Of a stretch of DNA of 22,086 bases, positions 1,025 through 22,086 are shown one piece after another; within the stretch, counting starts at the first letter, position 1; each line of letters opens with the position of its first letter. The notes beneath the pieces are model-generated. The model had not been told where the DNA came from. It was given only the letters and a program-made list of their open reading frames with translations, and made no database searches. The stretch spans positions 1 through 22,086 of IMG/VR virus record IMGVR_UViG_3300037189_007714. The stretch is one strand, 5' to 3'. The stretch is from a virus. Both the position numbers and the translations under genes were made by a program.

Positions 1025-1025
1025 A

Positions 1026-1331
1026 ATGACTAATCCAGCATACAGTAAATCAAGTCCTTATTTTAACACACCTCAGAAATCTAATTATTTAGATATAATG
1101 AATATTCGAGATATTCCATCATTAAAAAATGATACACAATTTACAGTAACTTCTCAATATAAACATCGTCCTGATTTGTTAGCCTTTGATATATATCAGA
1201 ATGAACAACTGTGGTGGGTATTTGCGATGCGTAATAAAGATGTTATTAGAGATCCTATATATGATATGATTCCAGGTATTAAAATCTTTATTCCGCAACT
1301 TACGACTATTAATAAATCTCTAGGATTGTAA
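1026..1331 (+). CDS. 53: Baseplate wedge protein gp53, short form
   Basis: 101 residues from the ATG at 1026. An in-frame upstream ATG at 978 would overlap the previous gene by 47 bases; the start at 1026, one base after that stop and preceded by AAGGG at about 1010-1014, is preferred. The C-terminal half carries the LysM-like wedge signature: HRPDLLAFDIYQNEQLWWVF, then ameliorated A-M-R-N-K-D-V-I-R-D-P-I and GIKIFIP at the end. T4 gp53 is 196 residues and joins the six baseplate wedges around the hub; here only the LysM-like part and a short N-terminal arm remain, which is usual for marine relatives as far as I recall. It is followed after three bases by the large structural gene. Confidence 0.88.
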   Translation: MTNPAYSKSSPYFNTPQKSNYLDIMNIRDIPSLKNDTQFTVTSQYKHRPDLLAFDIYQNEQLWWVFAMRNKDVIRDPIYDMIPGIKIFIPQLTTINKSLGL

Positions 1332-4649: not shown

Positions 4650-6941
4650 ATGACAATTAATACAACAGAATCAAAACATAAGTCACTTGAAGGTGTTTTT
4701 GTTGGACCCGGTCCTTACTTGGCTAGGGTTATAAATCATCTTGACACTACACTTATGGGCGGTCTTGAAGTTCTATTGTATGAAGGCGGCACCGCAGATA
4801 GCAATTTAAAAGAAGGCTCGATACCTGTATATTATATGAGCCCGTTTTGGGGATCTACATCTTCTGAATTTGAAGGAAATAATTCTGCAGACTTTAATGA
4901 TGTACAAAAGAGTTATGGCATGTGGATGGTACCTCCTGATGTCGGTTCATGCGTGATGGTTATGTTTGTTAGAGGTATGGCTAATGCAGGTTATTGGATT
5001 GGTTGCGTTCCTGACACATATCAAAATCATATGGTTCCTGGAATCTCGGCTTCTCGAGAAGTTGCATTGACCACAGAACAAGAACGAAAATATGGAACTA
5101 CAAATCTTCCAGTTGCAGAATTTTTAAAGCGTAGTAGAGATCTATCAGGCGGAGATCCGGATAAATTTACAAAGCCTGTTCATCCTTTTGCAGATCGTCT
5201 ACTGGCCCAAGGACTTATTTTAGATGATATACGGGGAATAACTTCCAGCTCGGCTAGACGAGAATATCCGTCGGCGGTTTTTGGAATCAGTACCCCAGGA
5301 CCAGTTGACATTTCAAAAGGTGCAAAAACAGGACAGATCGGGGCCGGCACAAAAGTAACTGCTTACGTCAGCAGAATGGGCGGATCGACATTTGTGATGG
5401 ACGACGGTGACAAGCAAGGTCTTAACGAGTTAGTTAGAATTCGAACTCGTACCGGGCATCAAATTCTTTTACATAATAGCAGTGACCTAATCTATATTGC
5501 CAATGCCGCCGGAACTGCATGGATAGAACTAACGAGTCAAGGCAAAATTGATGCCTACGCCGCAGATTCTATATCATTACATTCTGAAGGAGACTTTAAC
5601 CTACGTGCTGACAGAGATTTTAATATCGAAGCAGGCCGTGCTGTTAAAATCACCAGCGGGGAAACTATGCAGATAGAATCCGGAGCAAGTATACTTGGTC
5701 TAGCAGTTAATGATATAAAACTACAAACAAGCCAAGAGTTTCATCTTAGTGCAGGAACTGATATGTTCCTTGGAGCACAATCTGACATGCATATTAGTGC
5801 GGCGGGCGACAATTTATATCTGTCGTCAGGCGGCGCAACTAATATTAAAGCAACAACCGATATGGTGTTAGGATCTACTAAATCGATGGACATCAACGGG
5901 GGTACCGCAGTACAGTTAGGTAGTGCTGGTTCAATTAGTTTCAACTCCGATGCTACGATATCAATTGCCGCTAAAAAAGTTGTCAATGTATTAGGTCAAA
6001 CTTCGTTGAATCTAACATCTCCTGATCTTAATATTAACGGTAATCCAGCTACAGCAGGACCTGCCCCCGGTGTTCCAACGCCTGCTACTATTCCGGATAC
6101 ACCAGATCCTCTTCCGAGATATAATTTGCCTAATAGACAACCGCCTGGCGCATGGGCCGACGGTGAATTTTATAAGGCATCAGATATTGTTACAATCATG
6201 ACTCGTGTTCCTACTCACGAACCTTGGGAACACCACGAAAGCGTTAATCCTATAAGATTTGGTTCTGCCGCAACGGATGCAGAAAATACTGGAACGAATA
6301 CTTTCTCTGGCGCTAATATTGTATACAATAAAAACCCGTCATACGCACCTCCTACTAAAACAGGTAATCTTGCAGAAGACAACATTGCGGCCTTCCTCTG
6401 GACTATTCGTAGAGCAGAAGGTACAGCCAGTAAAGATGGTTATAGAACACAATATACCAGCGCATTATTTGACGTTGAAAATGCGAGTCTACCTCCAGGA
6501 GTTAAAGCTCCTACTGGAACTCAGTTTTACAAAGGAGTTAAGTATTACGTATACGGTAGTAACTCATATGATCAAGACGGTGAAAGTTGGATTAATAGAA
6601 GTTACAAATATAAAGATCATCCTAGAGTTGTGCTTGGCCCGGCTAGACTTAGATCTAGTGCCGCCGGAGCATATCAGTTTATGCCAGACACTTGGGACAC
6701 TTGTAAAAAAGCGTGTTCTTTGCCAGATTTTAGCCCAGCGAGTCAAGACAAAGCCTGTATATACCTCCTTCAAACTCGCAATGCACTTGACGATGTTAGA
6801 GCAGGAAGATTTTCGTCAGCGGCCTATAAGGTTAGAAAGATATGGGCCAGTTTCCAGGGCGCCGGTTACGGCCAGCGAGAAATTCCTTCTACTACATTAG
6901 CTCAATATTTTAAAGAAGGTGGAGGCACAGTTGTTGCTTAA
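4650..6941 (+). CDS. 5: gp5-type baseplate hub and spike with C-terminal lambda-R-like lytic domain
   Basis: 763 residues. In T4, gp5 forms the trimeric cell-puncturing spike. Visible domains: residues about 14-140 an OB-fold (FVGPGPYLARV, GMWMVPPDVGSCVMVMF, GYWIGCVPDTYQNHMVPGI); about 240-314 a conserved bridge (STFVMDDGDKQGLNELVRIR, TGHQILLHN); 315-467 a beta-helix of roughly 19 octads such as DFNLRADR, DFNIEAGR, AVKITSGE; 468-535 a Pro-rich linker ending in RVPTHEPWEHH; about 577-760 a lytic domain. That last domain matches phage lambda R (glycoside hydrolase family 104 lytic transglycosylase): RRAEGT with Glu590 at the place of lambda Glu19, DHPR at 656, SSAAGAYQF around 668-677, DFSPASQD from 693, IWASFQGAGYGQ around 731-742, and KEGGGTV at the end. 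It would cleave peptidoglycan during penetration. T4 instead carries a T4-lysozyme domain between OB and helix. Start is three bases after the previous stop. Confidence 0.9.
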   Translation: MTINTTESKHKSLEGVFVGPGPYLARVINHLDTTLMGGLEVLLYEGGTADSNLKEGSIPVYYMSPFWGSTSSEFEGNNSADFNDVQKSYGMWMVPPDVGSCVMVMFVRGMANAGYWIGCVPDTYQNHMVPGISASREVALTTEQERKYGTTNLPVAEFLKRSRDLSGGDPDKFTKPVHPFADRLLAQGLILDDIRGITSSSARREYPSAVFGISTPGPVDISKGAKTGQIGAGTKVTAYVSRMGGSTFVMDDGDKQGLNELVRIRTRTGHQILLHNSSDLIYIANAAGTAWIELTSQGKIDAYAADSISLHSEGDFNLRADRDFNIEAGRAVKITSGETMQIESGASILGLAVNDIKLQTSQEFHLSAGTDMFLGAQSDMHISAAGDNLYLSSGGATNIKATTDMVLGSTKSMDINGGTAVQLGSAGSISFNSDATISIAAKKVVNVLGQTSLNLTSPDLNINGNPATAGPAPGVPTPATIPDTPDPLPRYNLPNRQPPGAWADGEFYKASDIVTIMTRVPTHEPWEHHESVNPIRFGSAATDAENTGTNTFSGANIVYNKNPSYAPPTKTGNLAEDNIAAFLWTIRRAEGTASKDGYRTQYTSALFDVENASLPPGVKAPTGTQFYKGVKYYVYGSNSYDQDGESWINRSYKYKDHPRVVLGPARLRSSAAGAYQFMPDTWDTCKKACSLPDFSPASQDKACIYLLQTRNALDDVRAGRFSSAAYKVRKIWASFQGAGYGQREIPSTTLAQYFKEGGGTVVA
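5592..6050 (+). other. Triple-stranded beta-helix (spike needle) coding segment of gp5
   Basis: Residues 315-467 can be laid out in about 19 near-perfect eight-residue units with alternating hydrophobic positions and frequent Gly, Ser or Asn (for example EFHLSAGT, DMFLGAQS, SMDINGGT, TISIAAKK). This is the periodicity of the T4 gp5 C-terminal needle. It ends in LNINGNPA, after which the sequence becomes Pro-rich. Confidence 0.85.
6378..6938 (+). other. GH104 (lambda R-like) lytic transglycosylase domain of gp5
   Basis: Residues 577-763 align by eye with nearly the full length of the lambda endolysin R. Catalytic Glu590 lies in AEGT (lambda has SEGT). Between the GY at 597-598 and DHPR at 656 there is an insertion of roughly 40 residues relative to lambda, rich in Tyr, Gly and Ser. 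The stretch GAGYGQ and the terminal KEGGGTV are nearly identical to lambda. Confidence 0.87.
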
Positions 6942-6949
6942 ATATACTC

Positions 6950-7387
6950 ATGCCATATAAAAATATTATAATCCAGCCTGCAAATTACAGCCTGCAAAAC
7001 AAAGAACAAACATCTCAGTTCTATGTAGGATTTTCTACACAAGATCCACATTCGAGAACTGTAACGATGTACGACTTTGATGTTGTAAAGCAAGATTTAT
7101 TAAATTATTTTAATACTCGACAGGGCGAACGAGTAATGCAACCTGGTTGGGGAACTATAATATGGGACAAACTTTATGACCCGTTCACTGACGAAGTAAG
7201 GGCTGAAATAGAACAAGATATTAAAAAAATTGTAGCATCAGATCCTAGAGTTAGTATTTTGTCAGTAACAGTTGCGGAAGCAGATTTTGGCCTAGTTTTA
7301 GAAATCAATCTTAGATTCATACCCACAAGCCAATCTGATGTAATGCGTTTGAATTTTGATAAACAAGCCGGTTTATCCCTACAATAA
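6950..7387 (+). CDS. 25: Baseplate wedge protein gp25
   Basis: 145 residues, close to T4 gp25 (132). gp25 is a conserved wedge component, related to the GPW/gp25 family of other contractile injection systems, and helps anchor the sheath to the baseplate. The family pattern is visible: VGFSTQDP near residues 27-34, DFDVVKQDLLNYFNTRQGER, then MQPGWGTIIWDKLYDPFTDE, and IEQDIKKIVASDPRV followed by an alternating beta segment ending in EINLRFIP. It starts eight bases after gp5. The upstream sequence is AT-rich (TTAAATATACTC) with no clear ribosome binding site, so it is perhaps translationally coupled to gp5. Confidence 0.92.
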   Translation: MPYKNIIIQPANYSLQNKEQTSQFYVGFSTQDPHSRTVTMYDFDVVKQDLLNYFNTRQGERVMQPGWGTIIWDKLYDPFTDEVRAEIEQDIKKIVASDPRVSILSVTVAEADFGLVLEINLRFIPTSQSDVMRLNFDKQAGLSLQ

Positions 7388-7395: not shown

Positions 7396-7407
7396 GTTTA
7401 TATTACT

Positions 7408-7439: not shown

Positions 7440-10400
7440 ATGATACCAGCAACTAACTCAAAACTACTTGTCGCAGAAGATTGGACTAAAATATACCAAT
7501 CTTTCAACAATGCAGACTTCAAATCTTATGATTACGATACTCTTCGTCGATCAGCAGTTCAGTATCTAAGAGCAAACTACCCCGAAGATTTTAATGACTA
7601 TATTGAAAGCTCTGAGTTTATTGCCTTAGTAGATCTTATTTGTTATCTAGGACAAAATCTAAGTTTCCGCGTTGACTTAAATGCCCGTGAAAACTTCCTA
7701 GAAACCGCACAACGTCGTGATAGCATTCTACGCCTAGCACAGCTAATCAGTTATAATTCACGTAGAAATACTCCTGCCAGCGGCATTTTAAAAATCACTG
7801 CTATTAGTACATCTGATTCTGTTATAGATAATAACGGAACTAATCTTGCTAATCAAATCATTAGTTGGAACGATCCTTCTAATAACAATTGGTACCAACA
7901 ATGGATCCTGGTTATGAATTCTGCAATGCCATCTGGAATGGCATTTGGCTCTCCAGCCTTGTCAGATACGATCGAGGGCATACTAACTGATCAATATAGA
8001 ATAAACACATCTCAGACTGGAACTCCTACATATACCTTTACTAAATCAATTAGCGGAATAGCTATGGGATTTGAATTAGTAAGTTCAACTTTCAAAGATA
8101 AAAATTACATATACGAAGAAGCACCATTACCCGGTAGACAGACTGGTATAATTTGGAGAAATGATAATCAGGGAGCTGGTTCAAAGAACACAGGTTTCTT
8201 TATGCATTTCAAGCAAGGATCTCTCAACAGCACTTCATTCTCGGTTGACAATCCAGTTCCAAATGAAATCGTTGGCATCAATGCTACTGATATTAATAAT
8301 GATGATGTCTGGTTATGGCAACTAAATGCAGACGGCACTTATAATAAAGAGTGGACCAAAGTTGATGCTACCGTTGGTAACAATGTTATCTATAATAGTT
8401 TAAATTTAAACACGAGAACGTTATATGCTATAACTTCTAGAATTAATGATCAGATTGATTTAAATTTCGCAGACGGCAACTTTGGTGATTTGCCTAAGGG
8501 CGGGTTTGTTCTATATTACAGACAAAGCAATGGATTATCTTACACAATTTCACCTTCAGACATAAATGGTCTAGCAGTAAGAATACCTTATGTGAATACT
8601 GCCGGTCAAGCACAAATTTTATCGCTTACTCTAAGTTTACAATATTCTGTTTATAACAGTTCACCTGCAGAAACAGATGCATCAATCAAACAAAAAGCTC
8701 CACAGAATTATTATCTACAAAATAGAATGATAACTGGAGAAGATTATAACATTGGACCAGTTACAGTTGCATCTGATGTTATCAAAGTTAAAAGTGTTAA
8801 CAGACAAAGTTCTGGAATTAGCAAGTATTTTGACCTAAATGATGTTACTGGCAGATACAGTCAAACAGACATATATGCCCAAGACGGAATCATTTATAAA
8901 GAAGATCAACAATTAAGTTTTACATTTACTTTTGAAAATCGTAATCAAGCATTCGGTATTTTAAAATCAAAGATTGAACCGTTGATTGAAAACCCAACGA
9001 CTCGAAATTTTTACTTTGACAAATATCCGAGACCAGATTTATCGAACATTAATATCAGTTGGACCCTAGCACAAACTGAATCGGGACAAGTTCGTGGGTA
9101 TTTTAAAGACAAGTACGATTTTATCAGCGGGGTTATAACACCACAACAAGTTGGATATTTCAGTAGTAATAACGCACAGTATATTACTGCTGGCGCTCTA
9201 ATAAAGTTTCAACCTCCTGAAGGAAAATTTTATCTACCATCGGGAAGATTAACTGATCAAGCTGATTCTACAACCCGCACATATACCTGGGCCCGTGTGT
9301 CCTTGATAACTGGCGACGGCTCAAACAGCGGTAATGGATTATTGAATGACGGTACTGGTCCAATAGTGCTAACAGGATTTGTGGACGACGGATCAATACC
9401 TGTTGAAATAATTCCGCAGTTGGTAACAAGTTTACCCTTTGCTTTAGAAAATGAAATTGTAAATCAAATTTCAGGAAAACTTAATTTTGGTTTAAGTTTT
9501 GATAGATTGACCAGAGCATGGGCTATTGTCACAGATACGAACATTGATTTACAAACTAAGTTTAGCCTAATATATCAAGGCGATACTACTAATCAAAATG
9601 CTGATTCATCATGGATCGTTGCGTTTCAATGGACAGGATCTTCTTATACTGTTTTTTACAGAAAAACAAATTACGTATTTGAAAGTGCAGAACAAACTTC
9701 TTTCTTTGTAGACGATTACAAAAATAATTTTGATTATATTTCTAATACCACTATTAAGGATAAAATTTCTGTATTAGGTATTAATACAATTCCTAATCTT
9801 GGAAATACATGGCGACACGGCTCTGCAACTCCTCAATCATCTTTAGGATCTAACGGTGATTTCTATCTTAATACACTTAATGATGTTGTGAGTAGAAAGA
9901 TAAATGGTACCTGGGTAGTAATACCTGCAGGACAAACTATTAACGAATTAGGAAAAGATCACCTATGGCAAGTAGATGAATCTATAGTTGAAAATGATGG
10001 ATATGTAGAACCTAAAAAAGTGTTAGTCAGTTTCTATGACAGTAAAAATAACGGACAAATAGATGATCCTGATAGTTTTGCAATTATCACCGACAGTCAA
10101 AATCCCTTAGTACAAACAGGCTTCTTGGGAAATTTTGTATACTTTCAAACCTTGTCAGATGGTTCCAGATATCAACTATATGATGCCAGTAAATTTATTG
10201 CCTACCCTGACGAAAGTTATGTACAATCGCCAGTAGATGGTCAATTATATTATTTTTATTCAGCAGATATAATTAAGAAATATTCTTCTGCAAATTTAGA
10301 TTATGAACTACAGCCGCAGTACTTTGCTCGTGCTGGTCGCAGTGGTTTAAAATTCCACTACGTTCATAACAGTGGCGAAGAAAAACGTATAGATCCTGCT

Positions 10401-10955
10401 AAGTCAAACATTATTGATATCTATATGTTGACCAAAGGATATGATACTGCTTATAGAATGTGGCTGGCCGACACTTCACAGATGGAACCTATGCCTCCAA
10501 GTACAGCTACGCTTGAAGACACATATAGTCAATATCTTGATCCTATAAAAAGCATATCTGATACAATCATATATCATCCTGCAAAGTACAAAATTTTGTT
10601 TGGACCAGCGGCCGAATTAAATTTACAAGCAACATTTAGAGCTGTAAAAAATCCTAATATTCCTATTAATGATAATAATTTAAAGACAAGAATCGTTGCG
10701 GCAATAAATGATTTTTTTGCTCTTGATAATTGGAATTTTGGCGATTCGTTTAATTTTAGCGAACTATCAACATACATTATGAATATAATGACTCCTGATA
10801 TTACTAACTTTATTATAGTTTCCAAGAATGGTTCGTCGTTTGGAAATCTATTTGAAATATCATGTCAAAGTAACGAAATATTTGTAAGTGGCGCCGGTGT
10901 AACAGATGTAGAAATTATTACAGCGTTAACTCCTTCAAGATTATCTATTGTATAA
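7440..10955 (+). CDS. 6: Baseplate wedge protein gp6, enlarged
   Basis: 1171 residues, against 660 in T4. gp6 dimers form the ring that joins the wedges in the baseplate (J-like family). The N-terminal 110 residues carry DWTKIYQSFNNADFKSYDYD, then FNDYIESSEFIALVDLICYL and RRDSILRLAQLISYN. The central signature is at about 344-480: FADGNFGDLPKGGF, YYRQSNGLSYTISP, QNRMITGEDYN, VKSVNRQSSGISKYFDL. The C-terminal part has YKILFGPAAELNLQATFRAV, then AINDFFALDNWNFGDSFNFS, which is the usual end of this family. Between these lies extra material, including a short module at residues 800-828 (GSNGDFYLN, NGTWVVIP) like those in phage tail fibres. The ATG at 7440 fits the conserved N-terminus; no strong ribosome binding site precedes it. 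The giant gene begins ten bases after the stop. Confidence 0.92.
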   Translation: MIPATNSKLLVAEDWTKIYQSFNNADFKSYDYDTLRRSAVQYLRANYPEDFNDYIESSEFIALVDLICYLGQNLSFRVDLNARENFLETAQRRDSILRLAQLISYNSRRNTPASGILKITAISTSDSVIDNNGTNLANQIISWNDPSNNNWYQQWILVMNSAMPSGMAFGSPALSDTIEGILTDQYRINTSQTGTPTYTFTKSISGIAMGFELVSSTFKDKNYIYEEAPLPGRQTGIIWRNDNQGAGSKNTGFFMHFKQGSLNSTSFSVDNPVPNEIVGINATDINNDDVWLWQLNADGTYNKEWTKVDATVGNNVIYNSLNLNTRTLYAITSRINDQIDLNFADGNFGDLPKGGFVLYYRQSNGLSYTISPSDINGLAVRIPYVNTAGQAQILSLTLSLQYSVYNSSPAETDASIKQKAPQNYYLQNRMITGEDYNIGPVTVASDVIKVKSVNRQSSGISKYFDLNDVTGRYSQTDIYAQDGIIYKEDQQLSFTFTFENRNQAFGILKSKIEPLIENPTTRNFYFDKYPRPDLSNINISWTLAQTESGQVRGYFKDKYDFISGVITPQQVGYFSSNNAQYITAGALIKFQPPEGKFYLPSGRLTDQADSTTRTYTWARVSLITGDGSNSGNGLLNDGTGPIVLTGFVDDGSIPVEIIPQLVTSLPFALENEIVNQISGKLNFGLSFDRLTRAWAIVTDTNIDLQTKFSLIYQGDTTNQNADSSWIVAFQWTGSSYTVFYRKTNYVFESAEQTSFFVDDYKNNFDYISNTTIKDKISVLGINTIPNLGNTWRHGSATPQSSLGSNGDFYLNTLNDVVSRKINGTWVVIPAGQTINELGKDHLWQVDESIVENDGYVEPKKVLVSFYDSKNNGQIDDPDSFAIITDSQNPLVQTGFLGNFVYFQTLSDGSRYQLYDASKFIAYPDESYVQSPVDGQLYYFYSADIIKKYSSANLDYELQPQYFARAGRSGLKFHYVHNSGEEKRIDPAKSNIIDIYMLTKGYDTAYRMWLADTSQMEPMPPSTATLEDTYSQYLDPIKSISDTIIYHPAKYKILFGPAAELNLQATFRAVKNPNIPINDNNLKTRIVAAINDFFALDNWNFGDSFNFSELSTYIMNIMTPDITNFIIVSKNGSSFGNLFEISCQSNEIFVSGAGVTDVEIITALTPSRLSIV

Positions 10956-10965
10956 GAATTTAAAA

Positions 10966-13900
10966 ATGGCAAAAAAAACACGCAATGAATTAACAGACGT
11001 TTATAATTTAAACGACCCTAGTCACTCAAGAAAGACCAGTGACCTACTACCTGCCTATCTTCAAACAGATAAAAACGTAAAATTCTTATCAAGCACACTA
11101 GATAGATTAGTTGAAGTTCCTCGAGTCGAACGGATTAGTGGCTATGTCGGAAGTAAAATTACATCAACATACAATCCGTCAAAAGATCAATATATCGGTA
11201 GCGTATCAAAATTAACACAAGACTATCAGTTAGAACCTGGTTTAATTGTAAGAGATGAAAGTGATAACATAACACAAGCTGTAAGTTATGATGACTTAAT
11301 CAATCAGTTAGCGTACTATAATGCTACAACAGATAATCATGATAAGATTCTTCGCCCCACTGTATATTCTTATGATCCTAAAATAGATCTTGACAAGTTT
11401 GTAAACTATACACAATACTATTGGTTAGAAGGCGGACCTGACCCTATAGAAATTACAGGAATACAGAAGTCTACTGTTAGCACATATACAGTTACTGACG
11501 GAGGAGCTACGGTTGATACTTTTACAACTGTTGATCAAAAAACAATCAGTAATACAAATAATGCAACTGTTTTTATTTTTACACCTAACGGCCTGACACC
11601 AGACCCGACTGTAACTTTTTATAGAGGGTTGACCTATGTGTTGAATGTTAGTTCAGTACACAATCTTTGGATCAAAACAGCATTGTCATACGGTCAAGCA
11701 GATCAATACTCTGGGGTACTTAATAATGGCACAAAAGATGGACAGATCATTATTACAGTTGATGATCTAACTCCGGATGTTTTATATTATGTAGCAGGCG
11801 ATGATACTCGTGTAGCAGGAAAGATTGTTGTTAAATCTATACTTGAAAACACAGAACTAAATGTTGAAGCAGATCTTATAGGAAAGAAAACATACAACTC
11901 TGGTAACAATGTCAAGCTATCAAACGGCATGGTGATATTTTTTCCAGATAGTGTATTTCCAGAATCATATGCTGGAAAGCGTTGGATAGTTGAGGGAGTA
12001 GGTACTGCTATCAAGCTGATAGATTTTGACAGTTTACAAAATAGTGTTGATTTATCAAACAATCTCGATACCAATTTTGATGCACAGAATTTTGATCAAT
12101 ACCCATTTGATGATTTTAGAAATGCTCCTATAACTCCGGACTATATTACAATTAACCGCGCAAGCGTTGATAGAAATCCTTGGTCTCGTTATAATCGTTG
12201 GTTTCATGCTGGAGTAATTGCGGCATCTGCTAAGGCAAATGGTACACCTGCCGTATATCCGCAGGACAAACGTGCTCGCCGTCCTATTATTGAATTCCGT
12301 CCTAATATCAAATTATTCAATTTTGGTATAACATCAAAGACCAATGTCCATCTAATGGATACAAAGACTCCTGATGCATTTTTTGCAGTTGAGGGTAGTG
12401 CAGGATATTATGTTGATGGAGTATTATTAGAAGAAGGTTATCGAGTTATTTTTAATGCCGATACTGATTCTTTGATAAGAGGAAAAACTTTTGTAGTTAA
12501 GATAGAAACAGTAAACAATAATCAAATCATCAATTTAGTTGAAGATCTAACATCCACACCTTCAGTTGGTGATGCTGTTGTTACTGCGGAAGGAGCTACT
12601 TACAAAGGTTCTAGCTGGTGGTGGGACGGTAGTAGTTGGATACTTGCTCAACAAAAAACAAAATTAAATCAAGCTCCTGTTTTTGATTTGTTTGACCAAA
12701 ACGGAATAAGTTACAGCGATACTACACACTATCCTGGAAATTTTTCTGGAACTAAGTTGTTTGGTTATACACCTGGAACTATATACGATTCTGTGTTAGG
12801 ACTTGATTTAAAATATCTTAACGTAGCAAATATCGGCGATTTTCTTTTTACAAATTATTTTAATACAGATACTTTTTCTGTAGCATCTGCAACCGGTACA
12901 TCAATAGTTCCAGTGTCGGCTGGATTTTTAAAAATATCAGATGGAACGTCGACAAAATATGCAAATGCTTGGGTTCGTTCGATTGATATTCCTATTCCTA
13001 TTTTGCAATATCAGATAGTCGAAGCGGTAACGAATTCTATAGAAGTTAATTCTGTTGATTATCCTGGCTGGCAAACAGATTTAACGCTTGATGTATTTGT
13101 TAATGATATTAAAAAAATACAATATGTTGATTATGAGATTATTCCACAAAATCAATATTTGTTTGTGGTCTTTACTGCCAACTTAACAATTTTAGACAAG
13201 GTGTTGTTTAAACTTTATACAACAGCAATCCCTAATGCTAACGGAGTTTATGAACCTAGTTCTAGTTTAACGAATAATCCTTTAAACGGTCCTATTGCAC
13301 AACTAACGTTAGCTGAATTTACAAATCAACTACAGTCTATCACTGAAAATGTTCCTGATTTTATTGGATCTGCATTAGGTTTTAATAATCTAAGAGATTT
13401 AGGCGAAGTTGCACACTATGGCAGACGATTAATTTCTCATATTGAACCATTGTCATTTGCACACTTTTTTATTGGCCTAAAAGAACATAGCGTTATTAAT
13501 GCAGTAAGGAAAGTATCAGACGATTATCAAAATTTTAAATCTACTTTCTTAAAAGCAGTTAATGAAATTACTAATGCAGTAACTCCTCGAGATGCGGTTG
13601 ATCAAATTTTATCTGCAATTAACGCAGGTAAGGACGTATTGTTTCCATACGGCTATTCCGATATGGTACCATATGGACAAGATTATGTACAAAGAACTTA
13701 TACTGTAACAGATTTAAGAATTACAACCTATGCTCTTCCTTCAATTATTAACTTAATAGATGTTAATGAAAAAGCAGTAATAATCTATATCAACGGATCT
13801 CAACTAATGTTAGGAACAGATTATACTATTCCTAGCACAGATCCCAGCGTAACTTTTATTAAAAAGTTAACGCTTGGCGATACAATTGAAATACGAACTT

Positions 13901-16900
13901 ATGCAACTACACAAGGTTGCTATGTTCCACCTACGCCGTCTAAATTAGGACTGTATCCTAGCTTCCGACCATCAAAGTATTTTGACACAACATATACAAC
14001 ACCCTCATTTGTAATCGAAGGGCATGACGGAAGCATCATGCAGGCTTATGGTGATTATAGAGATGATATTATTTTAGAATTAGAATTGAGAATTTATAAT
14101 AACATAAAGTCATCTTCTGTATACACTCCGACTCTAGTTGATGTTAATTCTGTGTTACCTGGTGCATATAGAAATAAAGATTTTAGCTATAACGAAATTT
14201 TTAAACTTCTAAGTTCAGAATTTTTAAAATGGACAGGCTTCAATGGTGTTGATTACCGAACAAATGTAATTGCAGTAGAAGATCCACGAACATGGAATTT
14301 TAGAACATCTGCAACTAATCCTACTAACAATTTACAACTTCCTGGACATTGGAGAGGGATTTTTAAATATTTTTACGACACCGACCGTCCACATACCCAT
14401 GCATGGGAAATGTTAGGATTTAGCGAAAAGCCAGATTGGTGGCAGTCACAGTACGGTCCAGCACCTTTTACTTCTGGTAATACACTCCTGTGGTCAGATT
14501 TATCACAGGGTATTATCCGTAGTGGCGATAGAGCCGGTATTGATTTAAACTATGCCAGACCAAATCTTTTAAAAATATTGCCAGTTACTGAAAACGGAAC
14601 TTTACTAGATCCAGTAAGTATAGGCCTCGCACAGAATGTTATTTTCAATCAAACAAATGGAGAATGGGTGTTCGGAGATCATTCGCCTGCTGAAACAGCA
14701 TGGAGAAGATCAAGTGCTTGGCCATTTGCTGTCCAATTATTATTGGCCCTTACTAAACCTGCCAAATACTCCAGCTTATTATTTGATAAGAGCAGAATTA
14801 AGTTTTCAGTTGCGGGACAAACCGTATACGGAGATAACGAACAACTATTAAAACTTTCAGATCTTGTACTATACAGAGATACAGTTGCTGGAGGAATACG
14901 GTATGCGTCTGGCTATAGTGTACTGATCATTGAAGCAGGCCTGCAAAGAAATTTAAATTATATTGATAAACTAAAGGCAGATCTTGCTGGTGTAGATTAT
15001 AATTTAATGTATAAGGCAGAAGGATTTTTAGATAAAGATAAGTTAGCAGTACGTATCGATTCAGTAGATCCATCTAGCGTTAATCCAGGAGTACTGTTAC
15101 CTTCAGAGGATTACGCAATCCAATTACATCAAAGTAATCCAATTTTATCTTTAGCAATTAGCGGCGTTATTATTCAAAAAAATCAAGGAGCATATACTAT
15201 AAAAGGTTATGACTCTTTTAATCCTTATTTTAAAATACTAACTTCTGTCCATAGTTTTCAAGATACAAAAGTTACATTAGGTGGAGCTTCTGAAAATTAT
15301 GTAACATGGACTGAAAATAAATTCTATCAAACAGGACAACTGGTATCTTATCAAAATGATTACTATAGAACTAAACTCAGTCATACTGCAACTACTTCAT
15401 TCAATGCTGATAACTTCCAACAATTATCTGAATTACCAATAGTAGGAGGAGTCACTGTTGCTAAAGCGACCAAGTATGAAACTACTCCAACTGTTATATC
15501 TTACGGTTCGACTTTGCTAACAGTACAAGATGTCTACGACTTTTTAATTGGCTACGGAAGATATTTAGAAACTCAAGGATTTGTGTTTGACTATTTCCAA
15601 TCAGACATGAATTCAATTCTTGATTGGGACTTCTCTACAAAAGAATTTTTATTCTGGACGACACAAAACTGGATAGACGGATCTTTGCTGGTACTAAGTC
15701 CTTTTGCTCAACAAGTTAAATTTAGAACAGTTGACAGTTCAGGAAACCAAACAGTATATGGAATAGTTGATGACCTAACAGACCCTTATTATCAATACAA
15801 CTTATTAACTTCGGATGGTACAGTATTTCCAAATCAACAGTTTACTTTATCGAGAGAAGATAATGAATTTGTAATTGAATCTTTATTACCTAACACAGGT
15901 TTTTATTTTGCTCAAGTTAATATTGTACAAAAACAGCATGCGGTTATTTTTAAAAATTTCAGTATGTTCAACGACATTGTTTACGATAAAGAAACTGGAT
16001 ATCGTCAGCAACGTATTAAATTAACAGGATTCAGAACAGCTGAATGGAACGGTGGTTTTACAACTCCAGGATTTATATATGACGAAGCAGTTGTAACCGA
16101 CTGGCAACCATACACGGACTATGCACCGGGCGAAGTTGTTCGATATTCTGGAAAGTATTATTCGGCTATCATGAAAGTTGACGGATCTACAACATTTGAT
16201 TTTACGTTGTGGCAAGGTCTTCTATCGAAACCTACACCTTCATTATTGCCAAACTTTGAATATAAGATTACTCAATTTGAAGATTTTTATAGTTTAGATA
16301 TAGACAACTTTGATGTTGCACAACAGCGCATGGCGCAACATCTTACAGGCTACACTCCTAGAATATATCTAGATAACATTTTTGATGACAGAATTGCACA
16401 GTATAAATTCTATCAAGGGTACATTAAAGAAAAGGGCACCTCTAATGCTATTACTAAATTAGCCAAAGCCAGTCTTAACAACTTGCATGGAGAAGTTGAA
16501 TTTTTAGAAACTTGGGCTTTTAGAATTGGAGCATTTGGAGGTTATAGTTCCTACAAAGAATTACAGATTAATCTAAATGATCAACAATTCGTCCAGAACC
16601 CTCAGATAATACAATTCACAGGATACTCTAGTACTAATAATGACTTTATCTGTCGTGTTCCGCAAAGCAAAGTTTTAATTGCGCCAGACGATTACGATTA
16701 TAATAATGTATTTCCGACACTAGATACTAATTTTTCAGAATATATTTCTGAAATACAAACAGCGGGATATGTTCGTATTGATGATGTAACTGCTACTGCG
16801 TATAATGTTAATAGTATTTTGGACATAGGAGATCCTAACCTAATTGCAGAAGGTAGTACTTTCTGGCTAGGTTATAGTCCTACTGGTAGTTGGGATGTTT

Positions 16901-19900
16901 TACGATACACAAGACAGAATGTACAGATCATTCAAGTTGAAATAGAAGAACCCGGAATAAGCATTAGATTTACTACAGCACAACCGCACGGATTAGCAGT
17001 AGGCGAAGTAATCGCCGTTTCAAGATTTATCCCAGATCTTAATAAAGTTTACCTTGTTACTTCAGTAGACCCATCTCCGGCATCTGCTCCTGTAGGAACT
17101 ACAACTACCGTTACAGCCACTACTGATGCCGGAACAATTACTGATACAACATTTATTGCAGGCGGAAAACTTAGTTTTACACCGTTTAGTGTAGGTCAAC
17201 TCTTGACAGGAAACGGAGTAGCCGATAATACATATATTACTAAAGCACTAGGCAATAATACATGGACAGTTAGTGTATCACAATATATTACAGTTCCTAC
17301 AGCAATTACTGGTACAATAACAGTTTATAATGCTCCCCCGTCGCCTCCAACGTCGTCATATCAGTTTATTGTTTCTAGCACATTAACTGCGGTGCCGTAC
17401 TCATCGGACATTTATATTGGAATCGTTTCTAAATTTGTACCAGTTCGCTTTGGTAGTTTTGATGATTTACATTCTTTACCAAGATTAACAACAACCAAAT
17501 ATGGCGATAAAATTTGGGTTGACGATGACGGAACTGGAAAATGGGCTGTTTACGAAAAGATCAATAATTATTCTGCTACTGTATATTCCGATGACGTTAA
17601 TAATAGAAATCAACAATATGGTTTTTCATACAGTACAGACGAGTCAACATCAACATACGTAGTTAGTGCGCCAGGATTTTTTGATGCAAACTATGGATAT
17701 GGCAAAATATTTGTTTACAATAAAACATCCGTTAGAGATGTAAAAACAAACACACTATTCACATACTCATTAAAAGAAGCCGGACACGACTACTACCTGA
17801 GCACAATATCACCTGAGTTCGGTTATAGTTTAAAATACGATGCGGCTGATGATATAATTTTTGTAGGTGCGCCTGCAACAAGTCGAGTTCGAGGTGATGT
17901 GACAGGATCTGGCGATTTACGATTTGTAAATGATGCAAATAATGTAACATTATTTGATAGAAGCGGTATGATTAAAATTACTGCTATCAACAGAGTTACA
18001 AACTTGCCAGTGACGTTAGCGGCCCTAACTACTCCTAATCCTACTTCAAATGGCCGTTACGGTAACTCAATTGTAGTAAATTCTTCAGCAACTAACAAAC
18101 ACTTCTTAGTTGGTGCTCCTGGAGAGGGTGTTGGACATGTTTACAACTATAATATGACTATGGGACAGTACAACACAAGTACTGTAACAGTTTCTGCATT
18201 AACCGCATTGTCAAATGCTAATCTGCCAACAGGAAGTTATTTTGGTCAAAGCATCGCGGCAAATGAAGATCTCAGTGTCGTAGCAGTGGGTGCGCCGGGC
18301 GCATATACTGATACTGGTATTGTAAGAATTTATACTAAGAATTCTGATAATACATATACACCTTTGTCGTCCGGCGATATAACAAAAGATACAACAGGCC
18401 TAAAAGGTTTAATTAATTCCGGAGACTTGCTTGGTAACAAACTTGTAATGAGCAAGGACGGAGAGTACTTGTTCATAAGTAGCCCAGGAACACAATACGG
18501 CTTATACCAAGGTATGGTTAGCGTATGGCAATGGAATGGATCTAAATTTGCATGGTTACAAAACTTAACACAACCAAATAGAAATTCTAATACAGTCTTT
18601 GGGTTTGATATTTCTATCGATGACAAAAAAGAAACTCTAGTTGTTTCAAGTCTTGGCACACTAGAATTACAAAACATTACCTTTGATACCTATATGGGGC
18701 TAATGCCAAATGCGCTGGCATTGTATGGCACAAAGTACGTCAAAGATCCTACAACCGATAAGCGTCATGTAAAAACAACGTTTGATAACGGGTCAACTCG
18801 ATTCTATAGTAACATAGAAGGTGCCGGATCTGTTAGCGTGTTTAATAGATATCATACATATTTTTCTTATGCACAAGATATACAATCAAATTCAATTACA
18901 GACGGAAGTGATTTTGGTTATTCAGTTACCCAGCTAGGCGGAAATATATATGTTGGTGCACCAACTTCTGATACACTGGCTGGAAAAAATAATGGCCAAA
19001 CATTTATATTCCAAAAAATAGATACATCTCTAAACAGCTGGAGCCTATTACGACATGAAGAGCCGTTAGTAGATCCTTCAGTGATCAAACGTCTCATGAT
19101 AATTGATGCAGATAAAGATACTATTACACAATATCTTGAAATATTTGATCCTGTAAAAGGATATATCCCCGGTACGGCTAATCAAGAATTATCATATAAA
19201 ACAATAACCGACCCCGCCGTCTATACTCTTGGAACTGGAAAGATATCAGTTGATACTAATACCAATTGGACAGACGATCATGTTGGCGAGTTATGGTGGG
19301 ATACTGGAGCGGTAAAGTACTATTGGTATGAGCAAGGCGATTTAGAATATAGAAAAAATCAGTGGGGTACAACATTCCCAGGAAGTGCTATACAAGTATA
19401 TGAGTGGGTAAGTTCTGACTTATTACCTAGCGAATGGGCGGCAGTGGCTGATACCAGCAACGGATTGCTACGTGGTATTAGCGGCCAACCAAAATATCCT
19501 GATAACAGCGTTTTGTCTGTAAAACAAGTCTATAATACAGTTACCAATACTTTTAGTAATGTGTATTATTATTGGGTTAGAAATAAAACTACCCTACCTG
19601 TTGGATCTAAACAGCGAAGAATAAATGCACTAACAGTTGCAGGATTGATTGCTGATCCTAAAAATCAATTAGTAGAACATGCTACGATTTTAAGACAAGA
19701 TGCTATAGCATTAGTTAATGTCAAGGATTTAATCAATAATGACTCAACAAATCTACATATTAATTTTGATAGATTAGCGAAATCAGCACCTCGACATACA
19801 GAATGGTTATTGTTACAAGAGGGTGATCCTTACAGTACACCTTCTACGATGCTAGAACAAAAACTAATAGACAGTCTAGTTGGATATGATAAAATAGGTC

Positions 19901-22086
19901 AACCTGTTCCTGACCCAGCTCTATCAGTACAGGAACGATATGGCATTAATGTACGTCCTCGTCAAACAATATTTGTTGACAGAATGGAGGCATTAAGAAC
20001 CTTATTAGAATGGACTAATACTGTGTTGTTAGAAAACAGAATAACGAGTTTAAAATCAATTCCTAATCTTAAAATGATGGAAGAAATTCCATCACCTGAA
20101 GCAAATGTTTGGGATCAGATAGTTGAAACAGACTATCAATTAGGCCTCATCGAAACTAAGGGATTAAGCCAAGCGCAATTAGTATGTACGATTAATACTA
20201 ACGGCGGAATCGATCGAGTAATTGTTGCCTATCCAGGCGGCGGGTATAACTATCTTTACCCACCAACTGTTACAGTTTCTGGAAACGGTTACGGAGCAGT
20301 GATTGAGACTGTACTGAATGACACTGGGCGAGTGATAGGTGCAAATATTATTAATCCTGGCCGCGGCTACACCGCAATACCAAAATTAATAGTTCGTCCA
20401 TACACTGTATATGTACAAACAGATTCTGAAGCAAACAATATGTGGAGCAAGTTTGAATGGAATCAGGCAGAACAACTGTGGACACGTATCCATAGTCAAC
20501 AGTATGATGTAACCAAATATTGGTACACAGTTGATTGGGTACGAGCAGACTATAATAAACTACAGCCAATTGCTTACACAATAAGTGATACATACGGACT
20601 AAACGGAATAACTGCTGGGATTGGCGACCTTGTAAAAATACAAAATGCTGGCGCAGGCCGCTATGTAATTTTAAGAAAGGTTGATAAGACAATTAATGTT
20701 GGCACGTTTGATGCTGATTATGATATCGTTGCCGAGGAACAAGGAACGATACAACTCGATTCTGCGTTGTGGATACCTTCGTTAACTGACTTTGGATTTG
20801 ATGAAGTTGCCGCATATGATTCGACGTTCTTTGACCAAGCACCTGATGTAGAATTAAGCTACATTCTCAAAGCGATCAAAGATGATTTGTTCACAGGAGA
20901 CCTAAAACAATATTGGAATAAATTCTTCTTCCATGCTGTAAAATATGCGTTGTCAGAACAGACAAATATTGATTGGGCATTTAAAACAGCCTTTATTGAT
21001 GTTACAAATAAGGCGGGTTCTTTAGATCAACGACCTACATATAAATTGCAGGATAGTACTTTCTATGAAAAATGGATTGAAGAAGTAAAACCTTATCATA
21101 CAAAGATTAGAAATTTTACAACAGATTATACTGCGTTAGATCCAACGCATACCTTTAGTACGGACTTTGACCTTCCTGCATATTATAATCAAACGTTGGA
21201 ACAATTTACAACAATCAAATCTTATAGCGATCCGTTATTAAATTCGTATCCTTATAAATCTTGGGCAGATAATTTTTCTTATGGTGTAGGAGAAGTCCAA
21301 ATAACCAACGGTGGGTCTAATTATATACATCCTCCTAGAGTAGAAATTATAACAGCGCCTGGCGATACAGGATACGGAGCATTTGCTCGAGCATACATTA
21401 GTTTAGGAAAGGTGTATGATATTGTTGTGCTTGATCCAGGCAGTAACTATACAGAAACTCCGACTGTTGTGTTAGTAGGGGGCGGAGGTAAAGATTTTAC
21501 ACAGGCCACAGCAAGAGCCCAGCTATACAACGGAAAAATTCGAACAACATCAGTAACGATGAGGTTTGATCGTATATCTTACGGAACAGAAATTGCAGAT
21601 ATTAACGCATCTGACTATTTTGTAGGTGATGGCGAAACTTATACTTGGCAGTTGACTTGGGTACCCCAAGCTGAAAAGAACACAATCAATCTTACTATAG
21701 ACGGTTCTCTGATCTTAAATGATCGATACACTATTGAATATTATTCGGACTTCTTTACAAACGCCAGCGGAGTTACTGCTCTTAAGAAATTTGCAAAATT
21801 AGTATTAAATTTTGTTCCTGATAAAGAAAAACGGTTAGAACTAAACTATATTAAAGATATTAAATTGTTATCAGCAGTTGATAGAATCAACAATTATTAT
21901 AACCCTGCGGCCGGAATGCCAGGTAAGGAATTAACACAGCTAATGAAAGGTATGACCTTTGGTGGTGTTAAAGTTGACACATTGCCGTTTAACTATGCGT
22001 CTGGATGGGATGCATTGCCGTTCTATACCAGTGCCTGGGACAGCTACTCTAGCGAATCTAATTATGGAGTAGTAACTGATCCATTA
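10966..22086 (+). CDS. Giant mosaic virion protein (at least 3707 residues), gp7 position, 3' end outside window
   Basis: One frame stays open from the ATG at 10966 to the last base; I read it codon by codon and found no stop. It follows gp6 by ten bases, where T4 has gene 7 (wedge initiator, 1032 residues). Many segments recall large structural proteins of marine T4-like phages: DLLPAYLQTDKN and FVNYTQYYWL near the N-terminus, RASVDRNPWSRYNRWFH around 400, IEGHDGSI with DDIILELELRIYNNIK near 1020-1050, LPGHWRGIFKYFYDTDRPH and WEMLGFSEKPDWW near 1125-1160, AETAWRRSSAWPF near 1242, VYDFLIGYGRYLE near 1525, MAQHLTGY near 1790, EEVKPYHTKIRNF near 3370, and NPAAGMPGKELTQLM near 3646. Embedded modules are listed separately. 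No signal peptide or membrane segment is seen. A wedge/peripheral baseplate role is inferred from position; host contact is a further guess. The true length is unknown. Confidence 0.85.
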   Translation, partial: MAKKTRNELTDVYNLNDPSHSRKTSDLLPAYLQTDKNVKFLSSTLDRLVEVPRVERISGYVGSKITSTYNPSKDQYIGSVSKLTQDYQLEPGLIVRDESDNITQAVSYDDLINQLAYYNATTDNHDKILRPTVYSYDPKIDLDKFVNYTQYYWLEGGPDPIEITGIQKSTVSTYTVTDGGATVDTFTTVDQKTISNTNNATVFIFTPNGLTPDPTVTFYRGLTYVLNVSSVHNLWIKTALSYGQADQYSGVLNNGTKDGQIIITVDDLTPDVLYYVAGDDTRVAGKIVVKSILENTELNVEADLIGKKTYNSGNNVKLSNGMVIFFPDSVFPESYAGKRWIVEGVGTAIKLIDFDSLQNSVDLSNNLDTNFDAQNFDQYPFDDFRNAPITPDYITINRASVDRNPWSRYNRWFHAGVIAASAKANGTPAVYPQDKRARRPIIEFRPNIKLFNFGITSKTNVHLMDTKTPDAFFAVEGSAGYYVDGVLLEEGYRVIFNADTDSLIRGKTFVVKIETVNNNQIINLVEDLTSTPSVGDAVVTAEGATYKGSSWWWDGSSWILAQQKTKLNQAPVFDLFDQNGISYSDTTHYPGNFSGTKLFGYTPGTIYDSVLGLDLKYLNVANIGDFLFTNYFNTDTFSVASATGTSIVPVSAGFLKISDGTSTKYANAWVRSIDIPIPILQYQIVEAVTNSIEVNSVDYPGWQTDLTLDVFVNDIKKIQYVDYEIIPQNQYLFVVFTANLTILDKVLFKLYTTAIPNANGVYEPSSSLTNNPLNGPIAQLTLAEFTNQLQSITENVPDFIGSALGFNNLRDLGEVAHYGRRLISHIEPLSFAHFFIGLKEHSVINAVRKVSDDYQNFKSTFLKAVNEITNAVTPRDAVDQILSAINAGKDVLFPYGYSDMVPYGQDYVQRTYTVTDLRITTYALPSIINLIDVNEKAVIIYINGSQLMLGTDYTIPSTDPSVTFIKKLTLGDTIEIRTYATTQGCYVPPTPSKLGLYPSFRPSKYFDTTYTTPSFVIEGHDGSIMQAYGDYRDDIILELELRIYNNIKSSSVYTPTLVDVNSVLPGAYRNKDFSYNEIFKLLSSEFLKWTGFNGVDYRTNVIAVEDPRTWNFRTSATNPTNNLQLPGHWRGIFKYFYDTDRPHTHAWEMLGFSEKPDWWQSQYGPAPFTSGNTLLWSDLSQGIIRSGDRAGIDLNYARPNLLKILPVTENGTLLDPVSIGLAQNVIFNQTNGEWVFGDHSPAETAWRRSSAWPFAVQLLLALTKPAKYSSLLFDKSRIKFSVAGQTVYGDNEQLLKLSDLVLYRDTVAGGIRYASGYSVLIIEAGLQRNLNYIDKLKADLAGVDYNLMYKAEGFLDKDKLAVRIDSVDPSSVNPGVLLPSEDYAIQLHQSNPILSLAISGVIIQKNQGAYTIKGYDSFNPYFKILTSVHSFQDTKVTLGGASENYVTWTENKFYQTGQLVSYQNDYYRTKLSHTATTSFNADNFQQLSELPIVGGVTVAKATKYETTPTVISYGSTLLTVQDVYDFLIGYGRYLETQGFVFDYFQSDMNSILDWDFSTKEFLFWTTQNWIDGSLLVLSPFAQQVKFRTVDSSGNQTVYGIVDDLTDPYYQYNLLTSDGTVFPNQQFTLSREDNEFVIESLLPNTGFYFAQVNIVQKQHAVIFKNFSMFNDIVYDKETGYRQQRIKLTGFRTAEWNGGFTTPGFIYDEAVVTDWQPYTDYAPGEVVRYSGKYYSAIMKVDGSTTFDFTLWQGLLSKPTPSLLPNFEYKITQFEDFYSLDIDNFDVAQQRMAQHLTGYTPRIYLDNIFDDRIAQYKFYQGYIKEKGTSNAITKLAKASLNNLHGEVEFLETWAFRIGAFGGYSSYKELQINLNDQQFVQNPQIIQFTGYSSTNNDFICRVPQSKVLIAPDDYDYNNVFPTLDTNFSEYISEIQTAGYVRIDDVTATAYNVNSILDIGDPNLIAEGSTFWLGYSPTGSWDVLRYTRQNVQIIQVEIEEPGISIRFTTAQPHGLAVGEVIAVSRFIPDLNKVYLVTSVDPSPASAPVGTTTTVTATTDAGTITDTTFIAGGKLSFTPFSVGQLLTGNGVADNTYITKALGNNTWTVSVSQYITVPTAITGTITVYNAPPSPPTSSYQFIVSSTLTAVPYSSDIYIGIVSKFVPVRFGSFDDLHSLPRLTTTKYGDKIWVDDDGTGKWAVYEKINNYSATVYSDDVNNRNQQYGFSYSTDESTSTYVVSAPGFFDANYGYGKIFVYNKTSVRDVKTNTLFTYSLKEAGHDYYLSTISPEFGYSLKYDAADDIIFVGAPATSRVRGDVTGSGDLRFVNDANNVTLFDRSGMIKITAINRVTNLPVTLAALTTPNPTSNGRYGNSIVVNSSATNKHFLVGAPGEGVGHVYNYNMTMGQYNTSTVTVSALTALSNANLPTGSYFGQSIAANEDLSVVAVGAPGAYTDTGIVRIYTKNSDNTYTPLSSGDITKDTTGLKGLINSGDLLGNKLVMSKDGEYLFISSPGTQYGLYQGMVSVWQWNGSKFAWLQNLTQPNRNSNTVFGFDISIDDKKETLVVSSLGTLELQNITFDTYMGLMPNALALYGTKYVKDPTTDKRHVKTTFDNGSTRFYSNIEGAGSVSVFNRYHTYFSYAQDIQSNSITDGSDFGYSVTQLGGNIYVGAPTSDTLAGKNNGQTFIFQKIDTSLNSWSLLRHEEPLVDPSVIKRLMIIDADKDTITQYLEIFDPVKGYIPGTANQELSYKTITDPAVYTLGTGKISVDTNTNWTDDHVGELWWDTGAVKYYWYEQGDLEYRKNQWGTTFPGSAIQVYEWVSSDLLPSEWAAVADTSNGLLRGISGQPKYPDNSVLSVKQVYNTVTNTFSNVYYYWVRNKTTLPVGSKQRRINALTVAGLIADPKNQLVEHATILRQDAIALVNVKDLINNDSTNLHINFDRLAKSAPRHTEWLLLQEGDPYSTPSTMLEQKLIDSLVGYDKIGQPVPDPALSVQERYGINVRPRQTIFVDRMEALRTLLEWTNTVLLENRITSLKSIPNLKMMEEIPSPEANVWDQIVETDYQLGLIETKGLSQAQLVCTINTNGGIDRVIVAYPGGGYNYLYPPTVTVSGNGYGAVIETVLNDTGRVIGANIINPGRGYTAIPKLIVRPYTVYVQTDSEANNMWSKFEWNQAEQLWTRIHSQQYDVTKYWYTVDWVRADYNKLQPIAYTISDTYGLNGITAGIGDLVKIQNAGAGRYVILRKVDKTINVGTFDADYDIVAEEQGTIQLDSALWIPSLTDFGFDEVAAYDSTFFDQAPDVELSYILKAIKDDLFTGDLKQYWNKFFFHAVKYALSEQTNIDWAFKTAFIDVTNKAGSLDQRPTYKLQDSTFYEKWIEEVKPYHTKIRNFTTDYTALDPTHTFSTDFDLPAYYNQTLEQFTTIKSYSDPLLNSYPYKSWADNFSYGVGEVQITNGGSNYIHPPRVEIITAPGDTGYGAFARAYISLGKVYDIVVLDPGSNYTETPTVVLVGGGGKDFTQATARAQLYNGKIRTTSVTMRFDRISYGTEIADINASDYFVGDGETYTWQLTWVPQAEKNTINLTIDGSLILNDRYTIEYYSDFFTNASGVTALKKFAKLVLNFVPDKEKRLELNYIKDIKLLSAVDRINNYYNPAAGMPGKELTQLMKGMTFGGVKVDTLPFNYASGWDALPFYTSAWDSYSSESNYGVVTDPL
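11581..11841 (+). other. Cupredoxin-like domain in the giant protein, copper ligands mostly absent
   Basis: Residues about 206-292 read LTPDPTVTFYRGLTYVLNV, VHNLWIKT, then GVLNNGTKDGQIIITV and TPDVLYYVAGDDTRVAGKI. This resembles the 'YRG-TY-F...HPFWI...LYY-C-YH--M-G' beta-sandwich common in marine bacterial and phage proteins. His232 is kept, but the Cys, second His and Met normally near LYY are replaced (VAGDDTRVAG), so type-1 copper binding is unlikely. A structural role is inferred. Confidence 0.6.
13087..13902 (+). other. Two 'VNG...DYT' beta modules in the giant protein
   Basis: Residues about 708-745 (LDVFVNDIKKIQYVDYEI and a following beta stretch) and 938-975 (VIIYINGSQLMLGTDYTI, then VTFIKKLTLGDTIEI) fit the pattern 'V-V-N-G-x-L-x-x-x-x-DYT...VTF...L-x-x-GD-x-x-x-I' found repeatedly in phage tail fibres. 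A third, more diverged copy is near residue 3573 (21682: INLTIDGSLILNDRYTI). Confidence 0.55.
15301..15426 (+). other. CBM5/12-like aromatic module, copy 1
   Basis: Residues about 1446-1487 read VTWTENKFYQTGQLVSYQND followed by YYRTKLSH. The spacing W, Y-x-x-G-x-x-V-x-Y, YY is that of small chitin/cellulose-binding (CBM5/12-like) modules. Carbohydrate binding is inferred from this pattern only. Confidence 0.42.
16099..16221 (+). other. CBM5/12-like aromatic module, copy 2
   Basis: Residues about 1712-1752 read TDWQPYTDYAPGEVVRYSGK, then YYSAIMK, ending in LWQGL. It matches the CBM5/12-like spacing more closely than copy 1, including the final Trp. It follows a segment typical of the marine structural protein (GYRQQRIKLTGFRTAEWNGG). 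Confidence 0.5.
17101..17340 (+). other. Tail-fibre-type Thr/Gly insert in the giant protein
   Basis: Residues about 2046-2125 are rich in Thr and Gly and contain FSVGQLLTGNGVADNTYIT, then TWTVSVSQYITVP and ITGT. This fits the module 'VGQ-ISGTGV--GTYIT...YTVS-SQ' seen across phage tail fibres and marine phage structural proteins. It ends in a Pro/Ser hinge (NAPPSPPTSS), consistent with an inserted, separately folding unit. Confidence 0.55.
17617..19020 (+). other. Seven FG-GAP repeats (integrin-type beta-propeller) in the giant protein
   Basis: Residues about 2218-2685 contain seven repeats of the pattern 'FG-S...VGAPG...G-V-IY'. They begin near 17617 (YGFSYSTD, VVSAPG, GKIFVYNK), 17818 (FGYSLKYD, FVGAPA), 18058 (YGNSIVVN, FLVGAPG, GHVYNYN), 18241 (FGQSIAAN, VAVGAPG, GIVRIYTK), 18430 (LGNKLVMSKDGEYLFISSPG), 18598 (FGFDISIDD, LVVSSLG, GSVSVFN) and 18913 (FGYSVTQL, IYVGAP, GQTFIFQK). 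Repeat 2 has a long extension and repeat 6 a long insertion. Seven such repeats make a closed propeller, as in integrin alpha chains, where it binds ligand. Confidence 0.75.
20221..20400 (+). other. Gly/Pro 'GYxxxP' module, copy 1
   Basis: Residues about 3086-3145 read VIVAYPGGGYNYLYPPTVTV, then GNGYGAVIETVL and GANIINPGRGYTAIPKLIV. It has two 'PG-GY---P-V' turns flanking a GYGA-rich strand, a pattern seen in marine phage structural proteins. Confidence 0.55.
21295..21490 (+). other. Gly/Pro 'GYxxxP' module, copy 2
   Basis: Residues about 3444-3508 read VQITNGGSNYIHPPRVEI, then GDTGYGAFARAYISLGKVYD and DPGSNYTETPTVVLVGGGG. It repeats the plan of copy 1 about 360 residues later: two 'G-NY---P-V' turns around a central GYGA strand. 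The copies are diverged at the residue level, so the duplication, if real, is old. Confidence 0.55.

Follow-up and report, generated by a model that had tools for sequence, protein, structure and literature searches.

Directly downstream of the gene for the baseplate wedge protein gp6, the viral contig analyzed here (22,086 nucleotides, hereafter the window) carries the 5′ part of a giant gene that is real, under selection, and conserved, and whose product consists of a fixed frame surrounding a cassette of variable length. We consider it probable that this gene encodes a virion protein of about 4,500 residues (about 500 kDa) of a RaK2-like jumbo myovirus that replaces T4 gp7, forming a trifurcation with two copies of gp6 through a Lys-Gly (KG) block and carrying additional modules on the baseplate rim.

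A giant reading frame under uniform selection

On the plus strand, one frame is open without a stop from the ATG at 10966 to the contig edge at 22086 (3,707 codons), as stated in a preliminary description of the sequence. The remaining five frames over the same stretch contain 187 to 416 stops, and, given the local base composition, a run of 3,707 open codons would arise by chance with a log10 probability of about −120. A mechanically assigned TTG start at 10948 would overlap the stop codon of gp6. Since the window is the entire virus record, the contig edge truncates the giant frame, whose stop lies further on. Comparison with five relatives showing about 87–88% amino acid identity gave a pN/pS of about 0.1 in each 250-codon bin from the start to the edge, indicating that translation and selection extend over the entire frame.

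The closest complete relative, found on a 200.6-kb contig (L012) and about 87% identical, starts at the same place and runs for 4,532 codons (504 kDa); the two giants are fully collinear save for one module. The position of the L012 stop indicates that about 825 residues are missing from the window giant, so that the contig is expected to show roughly the first four-fifths of a protein of about 4,530 aa plus a 94-aa insert. Another relative (L007) has a complete frame of 4,515 aa, and complete giant frames were present in 65 of 115 IMG/VR loci, ranging from 3,830 to 6,444 codons with a median of about 4,600 aa, in agreement with the giant size claimed earlier. These 65 frames include some near-duplicates; a 66th complete frame in the list (1,149 aa) was gp6 and was left out of the count. 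A profile scan of environmental viral contigs yielded at least 598 stretches matching the giant family.

The long frame might in principle be an artifact, produced by misassembly, by overlooking a stop, or by a frameshift that fuses several genes, and its 3′ end is indeed out of view, with the stop beyond the contig. We regard this as extremely improbable, because 65 complete giant frames occur on other contigs and further giants in isolates, purifying selection is uniform along the frame, and collinearity with L012 is full except for the one module. The independent complete frames, which agree with the window and reveal no frameshift, together with the uniform selection, rule out an artifactual origin.

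Two observations concern the lengths of other members. The longest complete frame, in L082, has 6,444 codons and a cassette of 1,950 aa. Two closely similar giants, L016 (9962–22108) and L017 (193–13875), differ in length (4,049 versus 4,561 aa), probably because one of them has a frameshift or genuinely stops early.

The giant gene occupies the gene 7 position of the wedge locus

Upstream of the giant gene, the plus strand of the window encodes a gp53-like wedge protein (978..1331; phrog_7145; start codon uncertain), a large virion structural protein that is probably a hub component (1335..4646; phrog_11190), a gp5-like spike with a C-terminal lysozyme-type domain (4650..6941; phrog_13211 and phrog_90), the baseplate wedge protein gp25 (6950..7387; PF04965 and phrog_261), and the 1,171-aa baseplate wedge protein gp6 (7440..10955; phrog_10646, E 8e-282, and phrog_219). 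The order is thus gp53, hub, gp5-like spike, gp25, gp6, and giant. Up to gp6 the wedge gene order is that of T4, and the giant occupies the gp7 slot; gp6 was directly upstream of the giant in 102 of the 108 testable loci, bearing out the T4 gene 7 position assigned from the sequence at the outset. The window gp6 is nearly double the length of T4 gp6 (1,171 versus 660 aa); that is, the partner of the giant is enlarged as well.

The family includes virion proteins of isolated jumbo phages

The window giant matched phrog_10938 (virion structural protein, 3,324 positions) with 1,141 bits and an E value printed as 0. By tblastn, the giant family was detected in 58 isolate records at 25–31% identity, all of them RaK2-like, PA5oct-like, Atu_ph07-like, or SCTP-2-like jumbo phages; no nucleotide similarity between the window and isolate phages was found. 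The phrog_10938 giants comprise RaK2 ORF070 (3,326 aa), CBB_236 (3,340 aa), PA5oct gp355 (3,857 aa), Atu_ph07 AUZ94962 (4,449 aa), and SCTP-2 gene 140 (3,807 aa), and are homologous to the window giant along the conserved frame (25–30% identity, E down to 1e-149), whereas the environmental clade to which the window belongs is longer (about 4,530 aa). In RaK2, CBB, PA5oct, and Atu_ph07 the giant directly follows gp6, as in the window. SCTP-2 is the exception: a 3,098-aa frame precedes the giant (L003 6621–15914), and with the gp6 homologue about 90 kb away this adjacency is broken.

Virion mass spectrometry in related phages, proposed earlier as a check, is on record for two relatives. The PA5oct gp355 record is annotated with ESI-MS/MS, and 21 peptides of CBB_236, which the CBB report names only "structural protein", were obtained from virions (PMC5259590); we confirmed that CBB_236 is the phrog_10938 giant gene. 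Relatives of the window giant are therefore virion proteins. Homologues of gp6, gp25, and gp53 are given in the CBB report, with no gp7 in the list consulted (PMC5259590). Among the points that count against the replacement of gp7 by the giant, RaK2 and CBB baseplates are only about 35 nm wide, and the PHROGs category of the giant's family is "head and packaging". Other PHROG matches in the giant were rejected: those to "head closure Hc2" and "tail lysozyme" fall on GxGY repeats, which many unrelated families contain, and that to "thymidylate synthase" was at chance level.

A conserved frame surrounds a variable cassette

The family alignment revealed a conserved frame around a variable middle cassette. 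Across the family, the distance from the N terminus to a conserved block at aa 1780–1900 was 1,791 ± 70 residues and that from the block at 2740 to the block at 3300 was 541 ± 42 residues, whereas the intervening cassette measured 921 ± 262 residues and ranged 7.6-fold, from 255 aa (RaK2) to 1,950 aa (L082). In the window, the cassette lies between two conserved blocks at aa 1901–2739 (16666..19182, plus strand) and is followed by the second conserved frame segment at aa 2740–3440 (19183..21285, plus strand).

The module that interrupts collinearity with L012 is an in-frame, fibre-type module of 94 aa (aa 2036–2129; 17071..17352, plus strand) that is absent from this closest complete relative. 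Five other near relatives have the shorter cassette of L012, leaving an equal number of window residues unaligned, and the insert is likewise the window's own in comparison with the phrog_10938 isolate giants. A search of phage records for its source gave no match. Apart from this insert, close relatives conserve the cassette to the same degree as the remainder of the protein, with a pN/pS of about 0.1. A few distant giants, namely L094, L082, and L112, contain weak look-alikes of the 94-aa module at other positions.

AlphaFold2 models of aa 1–775 and aa 770–1950 had a mean pLDDT of 84 each. A cupredoxin-like fold was found at aa 169–294 (11470..11847, plus strand; model pLDDT 84), with Z scores of up to 10.9 over 96 residues. 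The β-sandwich of cupredoxins is present, but their Cys/His copper ligands are absent: the ligand columns hold Ala-277 and Asp-280 in the window, and Cys/His is kept at these columns in about 15% of the relatives. Two CBM5/12-like modules were assigned by model fold at aa 1444–1490 (15295..15435) and aa 1708–1755 (16087..16230), both on the plus strand, with Z scores of 5–7.7 to CBM5/12 folds and a Pfam E value of 4e-4 that is below the gathering score of that family. Their best structural neighbors were baseplate and fibre proteins of phages Milano and 7-7-1. At the position of the exposed ligand Trp of chitinase A1 (ChiA1), the family profile of module 1 has an aligned Phe, which makes glycan binding doubtful.

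Within the cassette, aa 2191–2720 (17536..19125, plus strand) form a predicted integrin-α-like FG-GAP β-propeller with seven blade motifs (at aa 2218, 2285, 2365, 2426, 2489, 2545, and 2650). A 27-sequence profile of this region matched integrin α-4 with an E value of 3e-14, as well as many other integrin α chains. The seven FG-GAP-type blades are common to the integrin α propeller and the window giant, but here the propeller forms one domain of a structural protein of a phage, outside any integrin context; by motif count, RaK2, PA5oct, and SCTP-2 have no propeller. GxGY repeat modules common to cyanophage giants were found at aa 3076–3153 (20191..20424) and aa 3440–3592 (21283..21741), both on the plus strand. 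The propeller, the cupredoxin and CBM-type folds, the fibre-type insert, and the GxGY repeats agree with the earlier view of the protein as a mosaic with binding and fibre modules.

A candidate gp7 trifurcation unit in the giant

The preliminary description, in suggesting that a single chain may combine wedge assembly with host-surface modules, implied the presence of gp7 within it. Family profiles did not establish direct homology between the giant and T4 gp7: the window giant had no match to phrog_964, the T4 gp7 family, and a whole-family hhalign comparison of the giant family with T4 gp7 was not significant (E 0.6). One local block did stand out. When a profile of the T4 and cyanophage gp7 "trifurcation", a term from the T4 and T6SS literature (PMC6300606), was compared by hhalign with 183 segments of the window family, segments near aa 1790–1830 reached a score of 25 (P 5e-4), with a probability of only about 30% over 22–24 columns; no unrelated segment scored above 17.6 and no reversed decoy above 16.7. 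These segments belong to a block at aa 1785–1850 (16318..16515, plus strand) whose Lys-Gly pair (aa 1823–1824) was identical in all 98 sequences compared and is flanked by two predicted helices. The best match among the 183 segments thus suggests that the KG block corresponds to the gp7 trifurcation unit, which leaves the earlier proposal with one suggestive block and without a direct match to the T4 gp7 family.

Two further candidates gained no support from profile comparison. An LLPxxFxTxxNxKFL helix at aa 27–50 (11044..11115, plus strand) resembles the gp7 core-bundle helix with its LP..F motif by eye, but its profile score was below those of decoys, and a KPYH motif at aa 3370, considered as a third gp7 block (HPxGF motif), did not score above decoys. 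Structure searches with both AlphaFold2 models returned no gp7, their lists being filled by cupredoxins and CBM5/12 folds; since the KG region is of low confidence in the model (pLDDT about 36–83), the absence of gp7 from these lists is uninformative.

The earlier reading also stood to be challenged by a separate gp7 homologue in the same genome. No T4-gp7-family protein was detected in the complete genomes of the relatives Atu_ph07, PA5oct, SCTP-2, and RaK2 in searches of limited sequence sensitivity, for which the T4 control was positive. T4 gp7 (phrog_964, 1,032 aa) and the giant have in common the position after gp6 and, as a candidate in the giant, a KG-containing helix-loop-helix block. 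Conversely, the giant is 4.4 times longer and has no significant family-level similarity to gp7, and its inserts lie between the putative core pieces and not upstream of the core. TssG, P2 gpI, and Mu gp48 have been proposed to be the lone partner of a gp6/TssF dimer (PMC6300606), as the giant would be; they are small, and no match between them and the giant was obtained. Together, the place of the gene, the lack of an alternative, and the one block support equivalence to gp7, but do not prove it.

Cyanophage giants in the same slot

Giant ORFs also follow gp6 in T4-like cyanophages: P-RSM4 PRSM4_106 (6,603 aa), S-CREM1 (5,422 aa), S-RIM12 (6,376 aa), and, by annotation, ACG-2014d (6,817 aa). 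In DSL-LC03, the 4,107-aa giant after gp6 is annotated "baseplate wedge initiator". Like the window giant, these proteins are giant, are encoded directly downstream of gp6, contain many GxGY repeat modules (BLAST E 2e-9 between the two groups), and carry a KG-type trifurcation block, that of the window being a candidate. They differ in insert positions and show no end-to-end similarity to the window giant. The link to marine T4-like structural proteins drawn at the outset is supported in part, through the shared GxGY repeats.

In the cyanophage giants, gp7 blocks are detectable by BLAST, whereas in the window giant they are detected only suggestively. The P-RSM4 giant aligned with T4 gp7 (E 8e-4) and, at an E value of 1e-12, with a Desulfovibrio phage gp7. 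For Desulfovibrio phage 7757, the gp7-like protein aligned with T4 gp7 aa 645–888 (E 1e-7), and its alignments with cyanophage giants had E values from 1e-7 to 1e-13. Long inserts separate the gp7 blocks in the cyanophage giants. In pelagi- and cyanomyophages, T4 Gp7 has been reported to be absent and replaced by the protein VrlC (PMC7029224). The suggestion that the window represents an unusual baseplate solution was therefore not upheld, given the same-slot giants in 58 isolate records and many cyanophages and the substitution of T4 Gp7 already published (PMC7029224). Because the giants of isolated jumbo phages and cyanophages are known, the size and place of the window giant are not new; it adds another member to a group that has hardly been studied.

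Proposed role of the giant and alternative explanations

In T4, six copies of gp7 surround the hub (PMC3004832). If the giant is the gp7 equivalent, six copies would likewise ring the baseplate hub, with the KG block of each joining two copies of gp6 in a gp7-type trifurcation. The inserted modules would then form the baseplate rim, as gp7 does with gp8, gp9, gp10, and gp11 in T4, and may hold fibres and contact the cell surface; the cassette may do either.

We think it likely that this assignment of the giant to the wedge is right. It is unlikely, by our estimate, that the giant is instead a peripheral baseplate or fibre-network protein beside gp6, with another, unrecognized protein serving as the real gp7 equivalent in the (gp6)2–gp7 core. 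A peripheral location would fit the non-significant whole-length similarity to gp7, the failure to find the N-terminal helix and the third gp7 block above decoys, the numerous adhesion-type folds, and the location of SCTP-2 gp6 elsewhere in the genome. It is harder to reconcile with a KG block that stands out among 183 scanned segments, synteny with gp6 in 102 of 108 loci, four complete genomes with no other gp7-family protein, and cyanophage giants in the same slot that carry gp7 blocks.

The fold content raises another explanation, namely that the giant serves chiefly for receptor binding, with host glycans bound directly by its propeller and its CBM-type folds and with the cassette acting as a swapped host-range locus. 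The 7.6-fold variation in cassette length between fixed blocks, the in-frame 94-aa module that the window has and 87%-identical relatives lack, and the CBM5/12 folds and integrin-like propeller themselves are consistent with such a function. We nevertheless judge it rather improbable, as CBM-like module 1 has Phe at the position of the exposed Trp of ChiA1, the cassette outside the insert is not fast-evolving (pN/pS about 0.1 in close relatives), and several dedicated fibre genes lie downstream. Replacement of gp7 by the giant might be combined with display: a gp7-type wedge protein may serve as a modular display frame with a fixed core and an exchanged cassette of 255–1,950 residues, so that domains for host contact, among them the integrin-like propeller, would sit on the scaffold itself and not on a separate fibre. 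We put this forward only tentatively and hold it to be less probable than the replacement itself.

The giants are among the largest proteins of any virus, and their annotation goes no further than "virion structural protein" or hypothetical. Placement of the family at the gp7 node, if true, would explain the apparent absence of gp7 from RaK2-like phages, provide a testable model of how jumbo-phage baseplates are built, and make the cassette the place to seek host-contact modules.

Genes downstream of the giant

The region beyond the contig edge was viewed in relatives. In G003, the giant is followed by a 917-aa protein that combines collagen-like repeats with a gp9-like segment, then by a 235-aa protein, and then by four fibre-type proteins with a common N-terminal domain. 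Another locus, L061, likewise has four fibre-type genes in a row (3597–11420) with a common N-terminal domain (phrog_14394/15511), which suggests that their products share one attachment point on the baseplate. In L012, the stretch at 23602–24486, which matches the beginning of the 917-aa gene of L061, encodes collagen-like repeats and then a domain containing YYQCTHHPAM. In this gene after the giant, the sequence has the appearance of a cupredoxin copper site that is still intact.
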